Part shown: positions 23,740 to 34,435 of the stretch, one piece after another
Layout: every line of letters starts with the position of its first letter
How positions within the stretch are numbered: position 1 is the stretch's first letter
Program-made: the position numbers and the translations under genes
Source: Ilumatobacteraceae bacterium
GTDB lineage: Bacteria; Actinomycetota; Acidimicrobiia; Acidimicrobiales; Ilumatobacteraceae
DNA: 64,000 bases
Direction: 5' to 3'
Assembly: GCA_033344875.1 (NCBI GenBank)
Contig: JAWPMO010000001.1
Location: 2,939,595-3,003,594 of the forward strand
Notes under the pieces: generated by a model
What the model saw: only the letters and a program-made list of their open reading frames with translations
The model's database searches: none
What the model was told of the DNA's origin: nothing

Positions 23740-23836
23740 TCGCCATCCCCCAAGCGGCCCAGGCCGTGTCGTGTCGTTGGTCGGCGGACCCAACACACGG
23801 CACGGCCACGGGTAGCCGCCCGAGGACCGATCGCAG

Positions 23837-23902
23837 CCGATTGCAGTGATTGACCCGGCCGATTGCAGCCGTTGACCCGGCCGATTGCAGAGGTTGACTC
23901 GC
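23837..23902. repeat. 22-bp tandem repeat, three copies
   Basis: Three back-to-back copies of CCGATTGCAGNNNTTGAC plus four more bases, at 23837, 23859 and 23881. It lies just before repeat array 1 and is unrelated to it in sequence. Noncoding; function unknown. Confidence 0.85.
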
Positions 23903-23929: not shown

Positions 23930-24732
23930 TGTCGCGAACCTGCGGCCCACGGGCGCAAACCCGCGACACACCCCACCGGCCCCTGAACCGAACGCACACC
24001 ATGTCGCGAACCTGCGCCCCACCGACGCAAACCCGCGACACACCCCCAAGTCCTAGTAGCCGAACCCAGACCGTGTCGCGAACCTGCGGCCCACCGACGC
24101 AAACCCGCGACACACCCCACCCGGACCCCACCCACCGCCAGACCGCGTCGCGAACCTGAGCCCCACCGACGCAAACCCGCGACACACCCCACCGGCCCCT
24201 GAACCGAACGCACACCATGTCGCGAACCTGAGGCCCACGGACGCAAACCCGCGACACACCCCACCCGGACCCACCCACCGCCAGATCGCGTCGCGAACCT
24301 GCGGCCCATCCGACACCGTGTCGCGCACCTGAGCCCCACGGCCCCAAGAACGCGACACACCCCACCCGGACCCACCCACCGCCAGACCGCGTCGCGAACC
24401 TGCGGCCCATCCGACACCGTGTCGCGCACCTGAGCCCCACGGCCCCAAGAACGCGACACACCCCCAAGTCCTGGTAGCCGAACCCAGACCGTGTCGCGAA
24501 CCTGCAGCCCACGGACGCAAACCCGCGACACACCCCACCCGGACCCACCCACAGCCAGCCGTGCCGCGAACCTGCGATCCATCCGACACCATGTCGCGCA
24601 CCTGAGCCCCACAGCCCCAAGAACGCGACACACCCCCAAATCCTGGTAGCCGAACCCAGACCGTGTCGCGAACCTGCGGCCCATCCGACACCATGTCGCG
24701 CACCTGAGCCCCACGGCCCCAAGAACGCGACA
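23930..24732. repeat. Array 1 of 39-bp palindrome-ended elements
   Basis: Ten complete elements of exactly 39 bp, each starting TGTCGCG (or CGTCGCG) and ending CGCGACA, the inverted complement, plus four left halves alone. Starts of complete ones: 23930, 24002, 24074, 24146, 24218, 24319, 24420, 24492, 24592, 24694. Most continue TGTCGCGAACCTG. They repeat with a period of 72 bp, or about 102 bp where an extra left half is present. The ~33-bp linkers come in three recurring types (beginning ACCGGCCCCTG, CAAGTCCT, ACCCGGACCC). Long frames across it are artefacts. It ends 25 bp before the nuclease-like gene. Confidence 0.93.
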
Positions 24733-24757: not shown

Positions 24758-25690
24758 TCAGGCGGACGGGCGGGAGGATCGACCGGCGAGCGTGGTCCGT
24801 AGCACCTCGATCACCATCAGTGGGTCGTGGATCACCTGCTCGAAGGTGAACTCGAGCACGAGCTGTCCGAGCCGCTGCAGGTCGTTTCGGCGTCGGGCAT
24901 CCTTCGCCCGCTCGCGCGGGGAGGAATGGCCGCGGCCGCCGGACACCTCGACGACGACACCGTGATCGCCGAACGCGAAGTCGACACGCGCCACGTGACG
25001 TCCATCGAGTCGATGCACCACCTGCGGCGTTGGCACCGGTATTCCGGCGCCCTGGACCAGTTGGATGAACCTGCGCTCGAGCACGGTGTGCCCACCGGAC
25101 GATGTCAACACCGAGTAGAGGCGCCCCAACCCCCAGCTACCGGGGCCACGGATCAGGGCGAGTCGTTCGAAGATCAGCTCCAGCGTCGCGCCCCGCGTCC
25201 GGATCGCCGAGTCGACGGCCCGCTCGAGTTCGTCGGTCGAGGCTCGATCCCTGGCCAGGTCGATGACGGTGCGAATCGGCGACGTGGTCGGAAACCCGTC
25301 GACCGACACTCGGTCACGCGGTCGCCGGTAGGTCGTGGTGTGCACCGTGCACGGCACGGCGGATGGACGGCGGCCGCGACACGAACGGTCGATGGTGAAC
25401 TCCACCACTTCACCCTCGAAACCGTCGAAGCCGTGCAGTTGTGCAGCCGCCCGATGGCTCACCACGGTGGTCGGCCCGAGCGACCAGACGCCGGCCTGGA
25501 GATGCTGATGCCAGGTCTCGGGGGCGCCCGCGACTCGATAGACACCCTTGGCCACCCGCACGAGAATGCCCCGCCGGGCAACGTGACGCAGACGGCTCTG
25601 CTCGGCGGCGGGCACCTGGTCGGTGCGGACCAGGCCGTACTGCCGGCCGGCGATTGCCGAGATCTCGGCGATGAGTCGATCGACGTCCAT
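24758..25690 (-). CDS. AbiEi-like / DUF559 (Vsr-like nuclease fold) protein
   Basis: 310 residues from ATG 25690 (MDVDRLIAEISAIAGRQYGLV). Residues 1-75 are a winged-helix antitoxin-type AbiEi domain (QYGLVRTDQVPAAEQSRLRHVARRGILVRVAKGVYRVAG). The middle (TTVVSHRAAAQLHGFDGF) is the usual continuation. The C-terminus ~225-300 resembles DUF559, a Vsr-like PD-(D/E)XK nuclease fold: HVARVDFAFGDHGVVVEVSGGRGHSSPRERAKDARRRNDLQRLGQLVLEFTFEQV. The DF and EV pair is kept; the Asp often found after EV is Ser. Such solitary proteins are common in actinobacteria, function unknown. Here it sits exactly between two arrays of the 39-bp element. Confidence 0.82.
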   Translation of the reverse strand: MDVDRLIAEISAIAGRQYGLVRTDQVPAAEQSRLRHVARRGILVRVAKGVYRVAGAPETWHQHLQAGVWSLGPTTVVSHRAAAQLHGFDGFEGEVVEFTIDRSCRGRRPSAVPCTVHTTTYRRPRDRVSVDGFPTTSPIRTVIDLARDRASTDELERAVDSAIRTRGATLELIFERLALIRGPGSWGLGRLYSVLTSSGGHTVLERRFIQLVQGAGIPVPTPQVVHRLDGRHVARVDFAFGDHGVVVEVSGGRGHSSPRERAKDARRRNDLQRLGQLVLEFTFEQVIHDPLMVIEVLRTTLAGRSSRPSA

Positions 25691-25762: not shown

Positions 25763-26802
25763 TGTCGCGAGTATGTACCGGTATCGCGCAGTACCGCGAC
25801 ACAGTTCGCTCGCATCGCGCCCGTTCGATCGTCGGTCGCCGTGTCGCGAAAAGCGTGGCGACGACGCGCACCGCCACAAGGGGCCGATGCTCGAAGCGAG
25901 CGTCGACGCCGATCTCTCGATCGCGCCCGCCGAACCGTGTCGCGGCCTCGTCGCCACCAGGCACGCCATCGCGACACGCCCATGCCTGCCCCCGGCCGTG
26001 TCGCGAACCTGGGGCCGGGGCACACGCCATCGCGACACGCCCACGCTTGCCCCTGGGCCGTGTCGCGAACCTGGGGCCGGGGCGCACAACATCGCGACAC
26101 GGCATGTGGGTTGGCAGCATCCGCCTCGATGCGGCCGACACCACCACCGACCGCGTCGCGAACCTGGGGCCCGGGCACACGACCGCGACACGGCATCAGA
26201 GCCCGGCACCACACACCGTCAGCGGCGGCTACCGCGGTCGAACCGTGTCGCGGCCACGTGGCCACCAGGCACGCCATCGCGACACGCCCACGCTTGCCCC
26301 CGGGCCGTGTCGCGAACCTGGGGCCGGGGTGCACAACATCGCGACACGGCACGTGAGTTGACGGCATTCGCCTCGATGCAGCCGACACCACCACCGACCG
26401 TGTCGCGAACCTGGGGCCGGGGCGCACAACATCGCGACAGGCCCACGCTTGCCCCGGGCCGTGTCGCGAACCTGGGGCCGGGGCGCACAGAACCGCGACA
26501 CGGCACGTGAGTTGACAGCATCCGCCTCGATGCAGCCGACACCACCACCGACCGTGTCGCGAACCTGGGGCCGGGGCGCACAACATCGCGACACGGCACG
26601 TGAGTTGACGGCATTCGCCTCGATGCGGCCCGCCCACGCCTGCCCCGGGGCGTGTCGCGAACCTGGGGCCGGGGTGCACAACATCGCGACACGGACTGCG
26701 GGGAGCGGAACCGTCTGGGCGAACGTTGACGTCAGTGGTGATTCGACCGACAGCGACGCGCCGTGTCGCGTGCTCGGGGCCCCGGGCCCCGAGCCCGCGG
26801 CG
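25763..26802. repeat. Array 2 of 39-bp palindrome-ended elements
   Basis: Eleven elements with both ends, ten of them exactly 39 bp and one of 37 (26154). Starts: 25763, 25938, 25999, 26061, 26154, 26246, 26308, 26401, 26462, 26555, 26653; decayed copies at 25842 and 26764. Most read TGTCGCGAACCTGGGGCC, but 25763 and 25938 have quite different interiors and still keep 39 bp. The flanking base pairs often extend the palindrome to CCGTGTCGCG...CGCGACACGG. Linkers are either ~22 bp or ~54 bp, each class repeated. It starts 72 bp upstream of the nuclease-like gene and ends at the stop of the exonuclease gene. Confidence 0.93.
26773..26793. terminator. GC-only palindrome after the exonuclease gene
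   Basis: CTCGGGGCCC-C-GGGCCCCGAG is a perfect palindrome with ten-base arms, 10 bp beyond the exonuclease stop on the minus strand and inside the decayed last repeat element (26764). It could terminate transcription from the exonuclease gene. No T-run. Confidence 0.4.
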
Positions 26803-27853: not shown

Positions 27854-27966
27854 GAGGTGGTGGCCAGGCGGTCTGCGGCACACGAGCGATGCCGATGAAG
27901 GCTGCTCCATTCCTGGCCTGACCTGGTTCACGGGCGCCCATTGCACAGGACCCGACCACCACCTCA
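27854..27966 (-). ncRNA. ffs: Signal recognition particle RNA (4.5S-like)
   Basis: On the minus strand a 113-base RNA is closed by an 11-bp perfect stem, TGAGGTGGTGG with CCACCACCTCA. In the middle is the SRP domain ACCAGGTCAGG-CCAGGAATGG-AGCAGCC, the same order as E. coli 4.5S RNA (ACCAGGUCAGGUCCGGAAGGAAGCAGCC split over the GGAA tetraloop); CCA/TGG closes the GGAA loop. It binds Ffh for co-translational membrane targeting. It sits just before tRNA-Ser on the opposite strand and near tadA, a common actinobacterial setting. Confidence 0.92.
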
Positions 27967-28032: not shown

Positions 28033-28120
28033 GGAGGGGTGCGAGAGCGGCCGAATCGGCACGCTTGGAAAGCGTGTGACCTTCACGGGTCCGTGGGTTC
28101 GAATCCCACCCTCTCCGCCA
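28033..28120 (+). tRNA. tRNA-Ser(GGA)
   Basis: Acceptor GGAGGGG pairs with CCTCTCC (one G-T), discriminator G and encoded CCA. Anticodon stem CACGC/GCGTG encloses TTGGAAA, anticodon GGA. Long variable arm as in serine tRNAs, and T arm GTGGG-TTCGAAT-CCCAC. Complete, 88 bases. Confidence 0.97.
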
Positions 28121-29391: not shown

Positions 29392-29850
29392 GTGACCGAC
29401 GCCGACCACGAGGCAGCGATGCGCGCCGCGCTCGACCAGGCGAGAGCCGCGCTCACCCACGACGACGTGCCGGTCGGTGCGGTGATCGTGCGCGACGGTG
29501 AGATCATCGCGGCGCGTCACAACGAACGTGAGCTGACCGGCGACCCGACCGCCCACGCCGAAGTGCTCGCGATGCGCGACGCGTCGGCGAGGATCGGTCA
29601 CTGGCGCCTCGACGACTGCACCCTGGTCGTCACCCTCGAGCCGTGTGCGATGTGCGCGGGCGCCATGGTGAACGGCCGCGTCGGGCACCTCGTCTATGGC
29701 GCCACCGACCCGAAGGCCGGTGCTGCCGGCAGCCGATTCGACCTCGTCGACAGCGAGTTGCTCAACCATCGGGTCCCGCGCACGACCGGGGTCCTCGCCG
29801 ACGAGTGCGGCCGACTGCTCGTCGACTTCTTCCGCGCCAAACGACGCTGA
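29392..29850 (+). CDS. tadA: tRNA-specific adenosine deaminase TadA
   Basis: 152 residues from GTG 29392. Converts adenosine 34 of tRNA-Arg(ACG) to inosine. Zinc deaminase motifs: TAHAEVLAM (His55-x-Glu57) and LEPCAMCAGAM (Cys85, Cys88). The C-terminus GSRFDLVDSELLNHRVPRTTGVLADECGRLL is typical. Intact and normal length. A diverged 134-bp piece of the same gene lies at 31717-31850. Confidence 0.93.
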   Translation: MTDADHEAAMRAALDQARAALTHDDVPVGAVIVRDGEIIAARHNERELTGDPTAHAEVLAMRDASARIGHWRLDDCTLVVTLEPCAMCAGAMVNGRVGHLVYGATDPKAGAAGSRFDLVDSELLNHRVPRTTGVLADECGRLLVDFFRAKRR

Positions 29851-29856
29851 CCGGGT

Positions 29857-30290
29857 TCAGCCCCGGCGCTCGGCGGCCACGAACTCGGCGTAGAGCCCCT
29901 GCACCCGCGTCGTCACCGGACCGCGGCGGCCGGCACCGACCGGGGCCCCGTCGACCTCGGTGATCGGGCGAGCCCCCGCGGTGGTGCTCGTCATGAACAC
30001 CTCGTCGGCCGCCGCCAGGTCGGCGAATCGGACCGTGCCGCCGATTTCGTTCCCGAGCTCCGTGCCGATCTCGTCGGCGACGCGTTCGGTCACCGTCAGC
30101 GCGCCGTGCTCGACGCGCCCGGGTTTGGCCGAGGACGACCCGAGGTCCATCCCGGCCCTGATTGTGTTGTCATCCCCTCCGGGGAGGACCCCCTCGTCGA
30201 CCGCGGGTCCCTCGTCGTTCAGGAGGTCGATCAGCGCCTGACAGATCTCGTGGATCGCGGTGGGGACGAGCGCGCGTTGCGCTTCTCGGC
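29857..30290 (-). pseudogene. Aminotransferase class IV C-terminal fragment fused to unknown remnant
   Basis: From 29857 to about 30022 the minus strand encodes LAAADEVFMTSTTAGARPITEVDGAPVGAGRRGPVTTRVQGLYAEF, nearly identical to the C-terminus of the intact aminotransferase at 32160-33026, at DNA level too. Beyond 30022 similarity stops; the frame goes on with IHEICQALIDLLNDEGPAVDEG and AGMDLGSSSAKPGRVEHGALTVTERVADEIG, coding-like but unrecognised, then becomes non-conserved. Most likely a chimeric remnant without a real start. The ~200 bp up to 30493 show only the ribosome site of the next gene. Confidence 0.75.
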
Positions 30291-30493
30291 GCGGTCGAAG
30301 GTGAGAAGTCGAACACGGTCTCGCCGCACGTGTCGTACAGCCTTGCTTGCAGTCTTGCCGGTACAGTTCGGCCACGGGGCGAGACCGCGAACTCGATCAT
30401 CGAGGTGGCTCCTGACCGGGGCCAGGTTTCTCGTACCGTCGAGGACGCCTTTCGGCTGGTCGCCCCGAAACGACTATTGATGGAGATGGACAC

Positions 30494-31716: not shown

Positions 31717-31850
31717 ACGCTGGTCGTCATCCTCGAACCCTGCGCGATGTGCGCCGGCGCGATGGTGAACGGCCGAGTTGGACACCCGGTGTACGGGGCG
31801 ACCGACCCCGAGGCCGGGGCGGACGGTAGCCGATTCGACCTCGTCGACAG
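31717..31850 (+). pseudogene. Diverged tadA fragment
   Basis: TLVVILEPCAMCAGAMVNGRVGHPVYGATDPEAGADGSRFDLVD corresponds to residues 77-120 of the intact TadA at 29392 (TLVVTLEPCAMCAGAMVNG...), with many silent differences, so it is not a recent exact copy. It has neither the HAE motif nor an end, and stops abruptly where the MscS remnant begins. Confidence 0.85.
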
Positions 31851-31992
31851 AGCTGGTTCGCCAAGAAGTCCAGAAATGCGAACCCGATCGCGATCGAGAA
31901 CACGCCACGACCCGACGGATGATTGCAGCGACGACGAGCACGACGATTGCGATCCCGATCCTGGGCAACGTTTCGAGCAGCGCCTCCAGCAT
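31850..31992 (-). pseudogene. MscS-type mechanosensitive channel remnant
   Basis: On the minus strand MLEALLETLPRIGIAIVVLVVAAIIRRVV (31992-31906) is the first membrane segment of a small MscS-like channel. In another frame, directly next to it, FSIAIGFAFLDFLANQ (31903-31850) is the family's SIAIGFAFQD pore-region motif. Everything normally between them is gone, so this is an internal deletion with frameshift. The 120 bp from 32040 to 32159 hold nothing recognisable. Confidence 0.65.
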
Positions 31993-32159
31993 GTTTGTTG
32001 CTGGAGGCGGTGGCGTTGCCGGCGACGTCGGTTGCGTCACCGTCGTCGTCGGGGGGCGCGGTCAGTCGATGCATCATCGCTCCAGCTGGTCGACCGGCTG
32101 GCACCCGGGGCCGCTCGACCGCAAACGCCCCGCCTCATTCCATCAGCGGGCGGCGTGAT

Positions 32160-33026
32160 TCAGCCCCGGCGCTCGGCGGCCACGAACTCGCCGTAGAGCC
32201 CCTGCACCCGCGTCGTCACCGGACCGCGGCGGCCGGCACCGACCGGGGCCCCGTCGACCTCGATGATCGGCCGCGCCCCCGCGGTGGTGCTCGTCATGAA
32301 CACCTCGTCGGCTGCCGCCAGTTCGTCGAGTGTCCACTCGCGTTCCGCAACCGCCAACCCCACGCCGTGCGCCGCCTCGATCACGATGCCGCGCACCACG
32401 CCGGGCAGGATGCGGTGGTCGGCAGGGGCGGTGACCAACCCACCGTCGATCACCCCGAACACGTTGGTGTGCGAGCCCTCGGTCACCACACCGTCGCGGT
32501 GCAGGATCACGTCATCGACGCCGGCGTCGAGCGCGGCCTGTTCGGCCAGCACGTTCGGGAGCAGCCCCGTCGTCTTCATGTCGACGCGACCCCACCGGAT
32601 GTCGTCGCCGGTGATCGCCCGCGAGCCGTTCTCGATCGCCGCTCGCGACGGCCCGGCGATCGCCTGCGCGCGGACCAGCACCGTCGGCGGCACACCCACC
32701 GGGAACGCGTGCGTCCGAGGCGCCACCCCGCGCGTGATCTGCACGTAGACCGTCGCGAGCGCGGCATCAGCGAGACCGTTGCGTTCGATCAGTTCGTGGT
32801 GGATCGGCGCCAGCGACGCCGCGTCGAAGTCGATGCGGATCGAGTCGAGTGTCCGCTGTAGTCGGGCGAGGTGCCGATCGAGCGCGATCGGTTGCCCCTC
32901 GATCGCGACCGTCACCTCGTAGCAGCCGTCGGCGAACAGGAACCCTCGATCGTCGACCGACACCGTCGCCGTCGCCGCAGGGACGAACCCACCGTTGAGA
33001 TACAGGACGGGTTCATCGCCAGACAT
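32160..33026 (-). CDS. Aminotransferase class IV (D-amino acid/branched-chain type)
   Basis: 288 residues from ATG 33026 (a second ATG at 33035 adds three). PLP enzyme of fold type IV: LYLNGGFVPAATATVSVDDRGFLFADGCYE start, catalytic Lys in RVDMKTTGLLPNVLAEQAAL, then VILHRDGVVTEGSHTNVFGVIDG and LPGVVRGIV. Layout is closest to D-alanine aminotransferase-like enzymes. Cytoplasmic amino-group transfer; substrate uncertain. A copy of its C-terminus lies at 29857. Divergent from the hydratase gene over 66 bp. Confidence 0.88.
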   Translation of the reverse strand: MSGDEPVLYLNGGFVPAATATVSVDDRGFLFADGCYEVTVAIEGQPIALDRHLARLQRTLDSIRIDFDAASLAPIHHELIERNGLADAALATVYVQITRGVAPRTHAFPVGVPPTVLVRAQAIAGPSRAAIENGSRAITGDDIRWGRVDMKTTGLLPNVLAEQAALDAGVDDVILHRDGVVTEGSHTNVFGVIDGGLVTAPADHRILPGVVRGIVIEAAHGVGLAVAEREWTLDELAAADEVFMTSTTAGARPIIEVDGAPVGAGRRGPVTTRVQGLYGEFVAAERRG

Positions 33027-33092
33027 CGGCGACATCTTGGCACCGCGCCGCCCACGTCGAGACATGGAAGACGGCGGCGCGAGACTCACACG

Positions 33093-33926
33093 ATGAGCGA
33101 CGACTGGGAACACATCCGCTACGAACAACCGGCCGAGCGCGTGGCCCGCATCGTCCTCGCACGCCCGCAGACCGCCAACGCGCAGGACTACCAGATGCTC
33201 AGCGAGCTCAATCAGGCGTTCGATTGCGCCGCCCGTGACGACGAGGTCCGGGTGATCATCCTCGCCGCCGACGGCAACCACTTCTCGTCGGGTCACGACT
33301 TGCGCGCCGGCACCGACATGAGCGGGATCGACCCGATCGGCACCTGGTGCTGTTTCGACAGCGACGGCGCCGAGGGGTACATGGCGACCGAGGCCGAGAT
33401 GTACGTCGGGCTCTGCTGGCGGTGGCGCAACATCCCCAAGCCCACGATCGCCCAGGTGCAGGGCAAGGTGATCGCCGGCGGGCTGATGCTCGTCTGGCCA
33501 ATGGACCTCGTCGTCTGCAGCGACGACGCCACGTTCTCCGACCCGGTCGTCGCGTTCGGCGTCAACGGCCACGAGTACTTCACACACCCGTACGAAGCCG
33601 GCGCCCGGCTCGCCAAGGAGATGCTGTTCACCGGCCGCGCGATCACCGCCGACGAGGCGTACCGCCACGGGATGGTCAACCGGGTCGTCAGCCGGGACGA
33701 CCTCGAATCGGAGACGCTGGCGATGGCCCAACACATCGCCAAACGTCCGATGATCGGCCTCACGCTGTCGAAGCAGAGCGTCAACAACAGCCTCGACGCG
33801 ATGGGGATGTACACGTCGATCCAGTCGGCGTTCGGGCTGCACCACGTCGGCCACAACCACAACCTGCGCCTGCACGACAGCCTCGTCGACCCCGCCGGCC
33901 TCCAAGTGATCCGCGACGAAGCCTGA
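33093..33926 (+). CDS. Enoyl-CoA hydratase/isomerase family protein
   Basis: 277 residues from ATG 33093. Crotonase fold: ARIVLARPQTANAQDYQMLSELNQAFDCAARDDEVRVIILAADGNHFSSGHDL forms the first oxyanion loop and KPTIAQVQGKVIAGGLMLVWPMDLVVCSDDATFSDPVVAFG the second. Acts on acyl-CoA thioesters. The usual catalytic Glu positions are not obvious (HEYFTHPYEAGARLAKEMLFTG follows), so exact reaction is open. Residues 90-125 contain an extra segment rich in Cys/Trp (TWCCFDSDGAEGYM). Confidence 0.88.
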   Translation: MSDDWEHIRYEQPAERVARIVLARPQTANAQDYQMLSELNQAFDCAARDDEVRVIILAADGNHFSSGHDLRAGTDMSGIDPIGTWCCFDSDGAEGYMATEAEMYVGLCWRWRNIPKPTIAQVQGKVIAGGLMLVWPMDLVVCSDDATFSDPVVAFGVNGHEYFTHPYEAGARLAKEMLFTGRAITADEAYRHGMVNRVVSRDDLESETLAMAQHIAKRPMIGLTLSKQSVNNSLDAMGMYTSIQSAFGLHHVGHNHNLRLHDSLVDPAGLQVIRDEA

Positions 33927-33967
33927 CCCCGCGAGCACTCGACTTCGCTCCATTCCCCCGCCGGCCC

Positions 33968-34435
33968 TGTCGCGAACCTGCGCCCACCAGCCCCCAAACC
34001 GCGACACCGCCCGACCGGCGCCCACCTCCCCGCCGGCCCTGTCGCGAACCTGCGGTCACCAGCCCCGAAACCGCGACACAGCCCGACCAGCCACCACCCC
34101 CGCCGACCTTGTCGCGAACCTGCACCCCCCAGCCCCCAAACCGCGACACAGCCCGACCAGCCACCACCCCCCGCCGGCCCTGTCGCGAACCTGCGCCCAC
34201 CAGCCCCCAAACCGCGACACCGCCCGACCGGCGCCCACCTCCCCGCCGGCCCTGTCGCGAACCTGCACCCACCACACGCAGAATCGCGACACCGCCCGGC
34301 CGGCGCCCACCTCCCCGCCGGCCCTGTCGCGAACCTGTGCCCACCACACGCAGAATCGCGACACAGCCCAGCCGGCGCCCACCTCCCCGCCGGCCTTGTC
34401 GCGAACCTGTGCCTGCCACACGCGAGACCGCGACA
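33968..34435. repeat. Array 3 of 39-bp palindrome-ended elements
   Basis: Seven elements, every one exactly 39 bp, TGTCGCGAACCTG...CGCGACA. Starts: 33968, 34040, 34110, 34181, 34253, 34325, 34397, so the period is 70-72 bp as in array 1 although linkers and interiors differ (linkers resemble CCGACCGGCGCCCACCTCCC). It fills the gap between the hydratase stop and the MarR stop, 7.3 kb from array 2. Followed by a (GGGGC)n tract at 34456-34474. Confidence 0.94.

Follow-up and report, generated by a model that had tools for sequence, protein, structure and literature searches.

AbiEi-DUF559 genes of Actinomycetota are repeatedly associated with their own flanking palindromes: a putative REPtron-like system with a different enzyme

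The 64-kb stretch of DNA analysed here (the window; positions 2939595-3003594 of contig C1 of the source genome, G000) carries three arrays of a 39-bp palindromic element, TGTCGCG-N25-CGCGACA, two of which flank an AbiEi-DUF559 gene (P0001) located at 24758-25690 on the minus strand and encoding 310 aa from its ATG. Array 1 (23930-24732) lies between the 3′ end of this gene and the 3′ end of its left neighbour (P0003; 23143-23739, plus strand), which we take to encode a small GTPase, and consists of ten elements, nine of them exact and one with CGTCGCG at 24146, along with extra half-sites. Array 2 (25763-26802) is positioned 5′ of the DUF559 gene and 3′ of the next gene (P0002; 26803-27675, minus strand), presumably encoding a 5′-3′ exonuclease-like protein, and holds ten exact elements within 25763-26691 and decayed copies at 25842, 26154 and 26764, the last of which occupies 26764-26802. 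Array 3 (33968-34435) contains seven exact elements spaced by 70-72 bp between convergent genes, and a tandem period of 72 is found in arrays 1 and 3. The gaps from the DUF559 gene to arrays 1 and 2 are 25 and 72 bp, exactly as stated in an earlier note on this DNA, which had proposed that the gene and the arrays around it belong together. Just before array 1, at 23836-23898, there is a 22-bp tandem repeat of 2.9 copies that differs from the palindrome. Beside the exonuclease gene lie a small bacterial SRP RNA (27859-27957, minus strand, 68.4 bits) and a tRNA gene (28033-28117, plus strand, 48.1 bits). ORFs at 29392-29850 and 31747-32196, and at 29857-30375 and 32160-34025, are repeated pieces of what we assume to be a TadA-like deaminase and an aminotransferase C-terminus, and look like duplication remnants among intact genes.

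An exact search of the window returned 26 elements of 39 bp in the three arrays, and 100 dinucleotide shuffles of the same sequence gave a mean of 0.07 exact elements and a maximum of 1. When one end mismatch was tolerated within the array stretches we obtained 29 candidates, 27 of 39 bp and two shorter ones of 37 bp, of which that at 25842 is doubtful. The 28 elements counted in the earlier note, 27 of them 39 bp long, fit this one-mismatch count, although two of the 28 lack one exact end letter. The note had further placed the half-site centres 32 bp apart and argued from three helical turns that both half-sites face the same side of the DNA. This spacing is right in G000 but is not general, and the helical-phase argument fails as a rule across species because, in other genomes, most copies have a whole length of 37-40 bp and two copies of G019 measure 42-44 bp. 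The elements matched no known RNA family above its gathering score.

P0001 comprises an AbiEi-like part at approximately residues 1-180 and a DUF559/EDxHD-type nuclease domain at approximately residues 200-306. Pfam DUF559 scores 25.1 bits, above its cut-off, AbiEi_4 scores 23 bits, just below its cut-off, and the PADLOC AbiEi model matches residues 1-178 at 7e-27. In an alignment of ten relatives E205, D237, E248, H255 and D264 are invariant, and we take E205, D237, H255 and D264 to be the residues of the EDxHD motif. A profile built from these ten relatives matched 3hrl (an endonuclease-like protein) and 3r3p (the I-Bth0305I domain), both with E 0.0005, while its N-terminal part matched the abortive-infection proteins 6y8q, which we assume to be AbiEi, and 9hlo, with E 0.02. 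The structure model is confident around residues 200-306 only, and the modelled nuclease domain (residues 202-306) resembles 3hrl (Z 8.8), I-Bth0305I (Z 8.7, rmsd 2.9, 92 aligned) and Vsr (Z 7.4); the N-terminal half has low confidence, so we make no claim on its fold. By sequence and model, the protein is thus an AbiEi-like part fused to a predicted EDxHD/Vsr-like nuclease domain. It shares with I-Bth0305I and Vsr the modelled nuclease fold and the conserved acidic and histidine residues, and differs from them in its AbiEi-like N-terminal part and in the position of its gene between palindromes outside genes. A DUF559 protein of Caulobacter has been termed Vsr-like and is needed there for a response to DNA damage in the absence of a methyltransferase (PMC12907096).

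The AbiEi-like part also recalls the AbiE type IV toxin-antitoxin systems, but no AbiEii nucleotidyltransferase toxin adjoins the gene in the window, where five AbiEii query sequences found no AbiEii-like match. Among the flanks of 66 relatives, three contain an AbiEii-like match, and none of these three genes is bracketed by palindromes. The plasmid relatives present a different picture: all six regions examined are AbiE operons in which AbiEii adjoins the antitoxin gene, with no matching flanks around the latter. In one of these operons (L403) a repeat scoring 99 surrounds the whole operon, which by eye is long and not a palindrome. The query protein P0004 had no match on plasmids.

Across the single 4,968,626-bp contig of G000, the whole-genome search that the earlier note had called for revealed 95 copies of the pattern with a spacer of N18-32, and no match for the backward control. 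Sixty-seven of the 95 lie within 2.724-2.974 Mb, a 250-kb region that includes the DUF559 gene, and 43 copies lie no more than 50 kb from that gene; there are none from 2.974 Mb to 3.083 Mb. Four copies precede 1.72 Mb (at 0.56, 1.04 and 1.71 Mb), one, at 3.606 Mb, came from a sampled stretch, and the remaining 23 are elsewhere, at positions not among the matches listed. The commonest spacing between neighbours is 72 bp, accounting for 21 of the 47 spacings below 130 bp. The elements in the 2.724-2.974 Mb region form arrays, whereas G229 and G030 carry theirs singly or in pairs. We considered and set aside two accounts of this distribution. Clustering at the replication terminus was rejected on the grounds that the sampled GC skew of G000 flips near 0.6 and 3.3 Mb, leaving a few hundred kb between the arrays and one of these points, and that the copies of G229 are scattered from 1.79 to 5.10 Mb. 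A DNA uptake signal was rejected since lone half-sites outside the arrays are about as numerous as base composition predicts, as estimated by hand.

In an order-wide sample, at least one match to the TGTCGCG pattern was present in 56 of 298 genomes, many with only one or two, like the backward control. At least six matches were obtained in eight genomes (G000 93, G229 32, G030 22, G307 16, G186 15, G166 11, G252 7 and G033 6), and a wider spacing range gave 21 in G019, 15 in G005 and 7 in G006. The 7-bp ends common to all these genomes are a consequence of the search pattern chosen; outside them, both arms carry (G)TTC-N0..2 in most genomes, GTCT in G030 and GGCCG in G000, and the interior arms pair, yet vary from genome to genome. 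A longer pattern run against a genome contig collection recovered 63 stretches, of which 44 belong to actinobacterial assemblies, 15 are single matches in Mesorhizobium contigs and 4 come from elsewhere.

We found relatives of the protein in 28 of 41 genomes, and their presence does not track the TGTCGCG counts. The reading that this refutes any pairing was reversed by the bracketed loci and by comparison of gene flanks. Pairs of elements approximately 1 kb apart enclose a 300-aa AbiEi/DUF559 ORF in G307, a frame-broken AbiEi/DUF559 ORF in G252 and an ORF of another kind in G186, and a further TGTCGCG-bracketed AbiEi/DUF559 locus is present in G229. In the flank comparison, the 350 bp to the left of each AbiEi-DUF559 gene were compared with the 350 bp to its right, and a gene passed if the score exceeded 37, the 99% value of a cross-genome null, and the common segment was palindromic, a criterion that was then kept fixed. 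Most of the first 37 loci had a high-scoring segment common to both flanks, often a long palindrome that differed between genes. With 28 loci added from other actinobacterial groups, and 3 of 66 dropped for short flanks, 63 were tested; G030 contributed three of its six DUF559 genes, and the other hits were likewise represented in part.

A two-sided palindrome was found for 36 of these 63 AbiEi-DUF559 genes, drawn from 42 actinobacterial genomes, vs 3 of 589 control genes. The controls were drawn from loci of Acidimicrobiales, of which some were centred on elements, and their intergenic setting was left unmatched. Passes numbered 25 of 36 within the order and 11 of 27 elsewhere in the phylum, and at least one bracketed gene was present in 26 of the 42 genomes. 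One of the three passing controls is a miscalled ORF over the G252 gene, and removal of the four previously known loci left 33 of 59 vs 2 of 588 controls (p = 7.5e-37). Held-out genes, whose flanks had not been seen beforehand, passed the same criterion in 23 of 40 cases, including 7/7 in G026. The genes that fail number 27 of 63 in the first set and 17 of 40 in the held-out set. The window's own gene is among those that fail the automatic criterion, with a flank score of 39 over an aligned piece that is a half-site, since its imperfect elements align as half-sites only; it is bracketed by inspection. The palindromes of the family are mostly 36-60 bp long and symmetric. Bracketing is not unique to DUF559 genes, as two single genes from other families in G001 (L350:2266-3235 and L351:2293-3223) also stand between copies of that genome's palindrome, which may reflect local spread.

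These results establish a strong, repeated and gene-specific association of AbiEi-DUF559 genes with palindromes, and the bracketing of relatives by their own, differing palindromes suggests a partnership of repeat and enzyme. The pairing put forward in the earlier note is thereby retained in a wider form, in which the palindromes also recur genome-wide, and its narrower part, the TGTCGCG element as the mark of one DUF559 subfamily, is lost. On a tree of 62 of the 66 loci, the proteins flanked by TGTCGCG, seven in number, fall in separate places and require 6 changes, and 100 of 500 shuffles were as low; two of the seven, in G166 and G186, have degenerate TGTCGCG flanks. That such flanks accompany distant proteins means that recognition cannot simply track protein descent. 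The note had itself set arrays without the gene, and genes without arrays, against its proposal, and both were encountered in part: by coordinates, G030 has 23 TGTCGCG elements, none of them near its six DUF559 matches, and G016 has 13 relatives and one TGTCGCG match, two of the seven G016 genes that we examined being bracketed by other palindromes.

Where the copies lie in relation to genes bears on a reading in which the palindromes are transcription terminators or mRNA-end hairpins kept by selection and the nuclease gene is incidental. Most dispersed copies lie close to gene 3′ ends, in intergenic regions between tandem or convergent genes. Pooling the TGTCGCG sites of eight genomes (n = 97) gave 45 tandem, 27 convergent and 6 divergent positions, 4 inside a called gene and 15 at a contig edge, with gene positions taken from a simple purpose-made gene finder that ran without training codons for G186 and G331. 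The gene-pair background for the same count was 611 tandem, 143 convergent and 147 divergent (n = 901), so that convergent positions make up 27 of 78 classified sites vs 143 of 901 gene pairs and divergent ones 6 of 78 vs 147 of 901. In G229, 17 of 18 sites lie 6-59 nt past stop codons; the 3′ distance is -11 to 43 nt for 20 of 21 TGTCGCG sites of G030, -11 to 38 nt for 20 of 23 sites of the different palindrome of G001, and 14-131 nt for 13 of 14 sites of a second G030 palindrome. Wider distances occur, up to 400 nt in G000, 237 nt in G307 and 420 nt in G005. This placement after stop codons is what terminators would show, and a small GC-rich hairpin occupies the same spot in G026 as a palindrome-gene unit in G229. 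Selection for termination alone would not, however, demand that the copies of one genome have loop and arm sequence in common, and the copies found number tens per genome; moreover, other genes are rarely bracketed by one palindrome, as the 3 of 589 controls indicate, and 0 of 12 exonuclease relatives exceed the same score limit. We therefore regard the terminator reading as improbable.

The position of the palindromes relative to the genes they bracket suggests another reading, namely that they are operators for AbiEi-type autoregulation and that the copies elsewhere arose as side effects. For both AbiEi and Rv2827c, binding to inverted repeats in the protein's own promoter has been reported (PMC7319586), and the palindrome lies a median of 76 bp before the matched gene part. 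A matching copy nonetheless lies also after the gene, at a median of 24.5 bp, the dispersed copies sit at the 3′ ends of other genes, and the six plasmid AbiE operons have no matching flanks around the antitoxin gene (scores 20-31). An operator role as the whole explanation is accordingly very improbable in our view, yet by analogy with the same AbiEi proteins, binding of the palindrome by P0001 is plausible.

We then asked how far each palindrome extends beyond its gene, joining nine flanking palindromes into one query against 13 genomes. Matches on both strands numbered 79 in G030, 58 in G001, 57 in G009, 34 in G331, 30 in G229, 26 in G021, 16 in G006, 14 in G003, 10 in G005 and 8 in G023, and this joined query returned 0 matches in G019, G307 and G033. 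Among the matches listed, eight of the nine palindromes have copies beyond the bracket, the exception being that of G006, and the complete genome G001 has 28 places, 2 of which form the bracket and 26 of which are further copies. Matches, again among those listed, fall on the palindrome of their own genome, except for G005, which has copies of the G001 palindrome; three of the four genomes that contributed no probe (G019, G307 and G033, but not G005) were without any match.

In an orthologous gene pair that we examined, from G009 and G003 (79.7% over 3.8 kb), the copies within a genome resemble each other closely: the flanking palindromes are 96.7% and 95.0% alike inside each genome vs 79% between the two, with matched changes in both copies. 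The gene body and the outside DNA of the two loci are 77-85% alike, so the palindromes do not diverge faster than the surrounding DNA. Across 36 genes, the more distant two proteins are, the less similar their palindromes tend to be, and the trend is weak (rho -0.18; a value as low arose in 31 of 2000 permutations). Among paralogue pairs of the same genome, 14 of 15 have a palindrome similarity score of at most 16, and one G186 pair scores 24.

Sites without the palindrome-gene unit were found in related genomes. The two neighbours of the G229 unit are 1.28 kb apart, and the same two neighbours in G026 are approximately 32 bp apart, with the small GC-rich hairpin (L391, approximately 1855-1890) between them, and this hairpin is no copy of the element. 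The aligned pieces of the neighbours are separated by 8 bp in G250 and by 82 bp in G123. Four more genomes were searched: in G084 the two genes lie 6 kb from each other, and in G306, G205 and G180 they were not found together on one contig. The unit present in G000 is likewise missing from its site between the GTPase and exonuclease genes in G003, G007 and G009, where these two genes are adjacent; no GTPase gene was found in the stretch examined beside the exonuclease gene of G001 or G005. We recognised no target-site duplication at the sites without the unit. The hairpin at the G026 site hints that units may replace native terminators. In G009, the exonuclease/GTPase junction (L190:1080-1490) includes a run of N surrounded by partly repeated ends of the two genes, probably an artefact of assembly.

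Such presence and absence at one site would be expected of a free-standing homing endonuclease that parasitises older palindromes, cutting at gene 3′ ends and having its own gene copied in, the palindromes themselves not being spread. The nuclease domain, nearest to an endonuclease-like protein, I-Bth0305I and Vsr, fits this account, as does the existence of elements without a flanked gene in G030. It is less easily squared with paralogues of one genome that own different palindromes, with flanking copies that agree inside a genome, or with the G026 site, which bears a different small hairpin and no copy of the element. We judge this homing account unlikely, though it is the strongest of the alternatives that we weighed.

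The closest precedent is the REPtron, in which a TnpAREP/RAYT gene is bracketed by gene-matched dispersed palindromes that are sometimes concentrated near the gene (PMC8266576). AbiEi-DUF559 genes are similarly bracketed by gene-matched palindromes dispersed outside genes. They differ in their enzyme, which is an AbiEi-EDxHD/DUF559 protein where the REPtron has a Y1 HuH transposase, and in their palindromes, which are symmetric and, for the TGTCGCG ones, have no GTAG tag at one end. The nearest described orphan palindromes are the CGTC-tagged REPs, dispersed palindromes that the part of the report we could consult gives as not associated with transposase genes (PMC3733652); they differ in being tagged at one end, and the same part names no partner gene (PMC3733652).

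Given this REP-like layout and placement, the elements might simply be REPs of a Y1 transposase of the RAYT or IS200 type, or relics of a classical insertion sequence. Y1 genes were found in 8 of 24 genomes searched. No Y1_Tnp (PF01797) match exists, however, in G000, G019, G030, G033, G166, G186, G252 or G307, that is, in 8 of the 12 element-carrying genomes searched, and the half-site consensus of the TGTCGCG elements contains no GTAG tag. A RAYT is thereby ruled out for G000, and we assign the Y1 explanation as a whole an almost negligible probability.

Taken together, we consider it probable that gene and palindrome form one functional pair, a putative REPtron-like system with a different enzyme, in which the protein would act on the palindrome and drive its spread and homogenisation. 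In such a system the AbiEi-like part would bind the inverted half-sites, and the EDxHD/Vsr-like nuclease domain would nick or cut the palindrome, be it as duplex, cruciform or single-stranded hairpin. Repair would then copy the palindrome to new places and overwrite old copies, and copies would persist where they are least harmful, after stop codons, where they may act as terminators; in G000, tandem growth would have produced the arrays, many of them near the gene. The broader proposal, to which we give a slightly better than even chance, is that AbiEi-EDxHD (DUF559) genes across Actinomycetota are a second, independent group of REP-like enzymes, each putatively spreading and homogenising its own palindrome at gene 3′ ends, with a homing-type nuclease in place of the HuH transposase and new specificities arising through linked changes in gene and repeat. 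Palindromes dispersed outside genes are common among bacteria, and in the publications consulted the enzyme family linked to them is the HuH RAYT; among the titles and abstract openings of the open-access publications listed by our searches we found none describing a DUF559/AbiEi gene-palindrome pair. If the proposal is true, orphan palindromes could be traced to a second enzyme family with palindromes matched to its genes; the large set of genes currently annotated as DUF559 or AbiEi antitoxin would gain a role, and many natural protein-palindrome pairs would become available in which the joint change of a nuclease and its target could be studied.

The Y1 transposase genes of these genomes were themselves submitted to the flank comparison, with 700-bp instead of 350-bp flanks. 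The eight loci examined (L120-L127) have similar sequence on both sides, and 8/8 exceed the same score limit. Ordinary REPtrons or IS200-like elements may therefore also occur in these actinobacteria.
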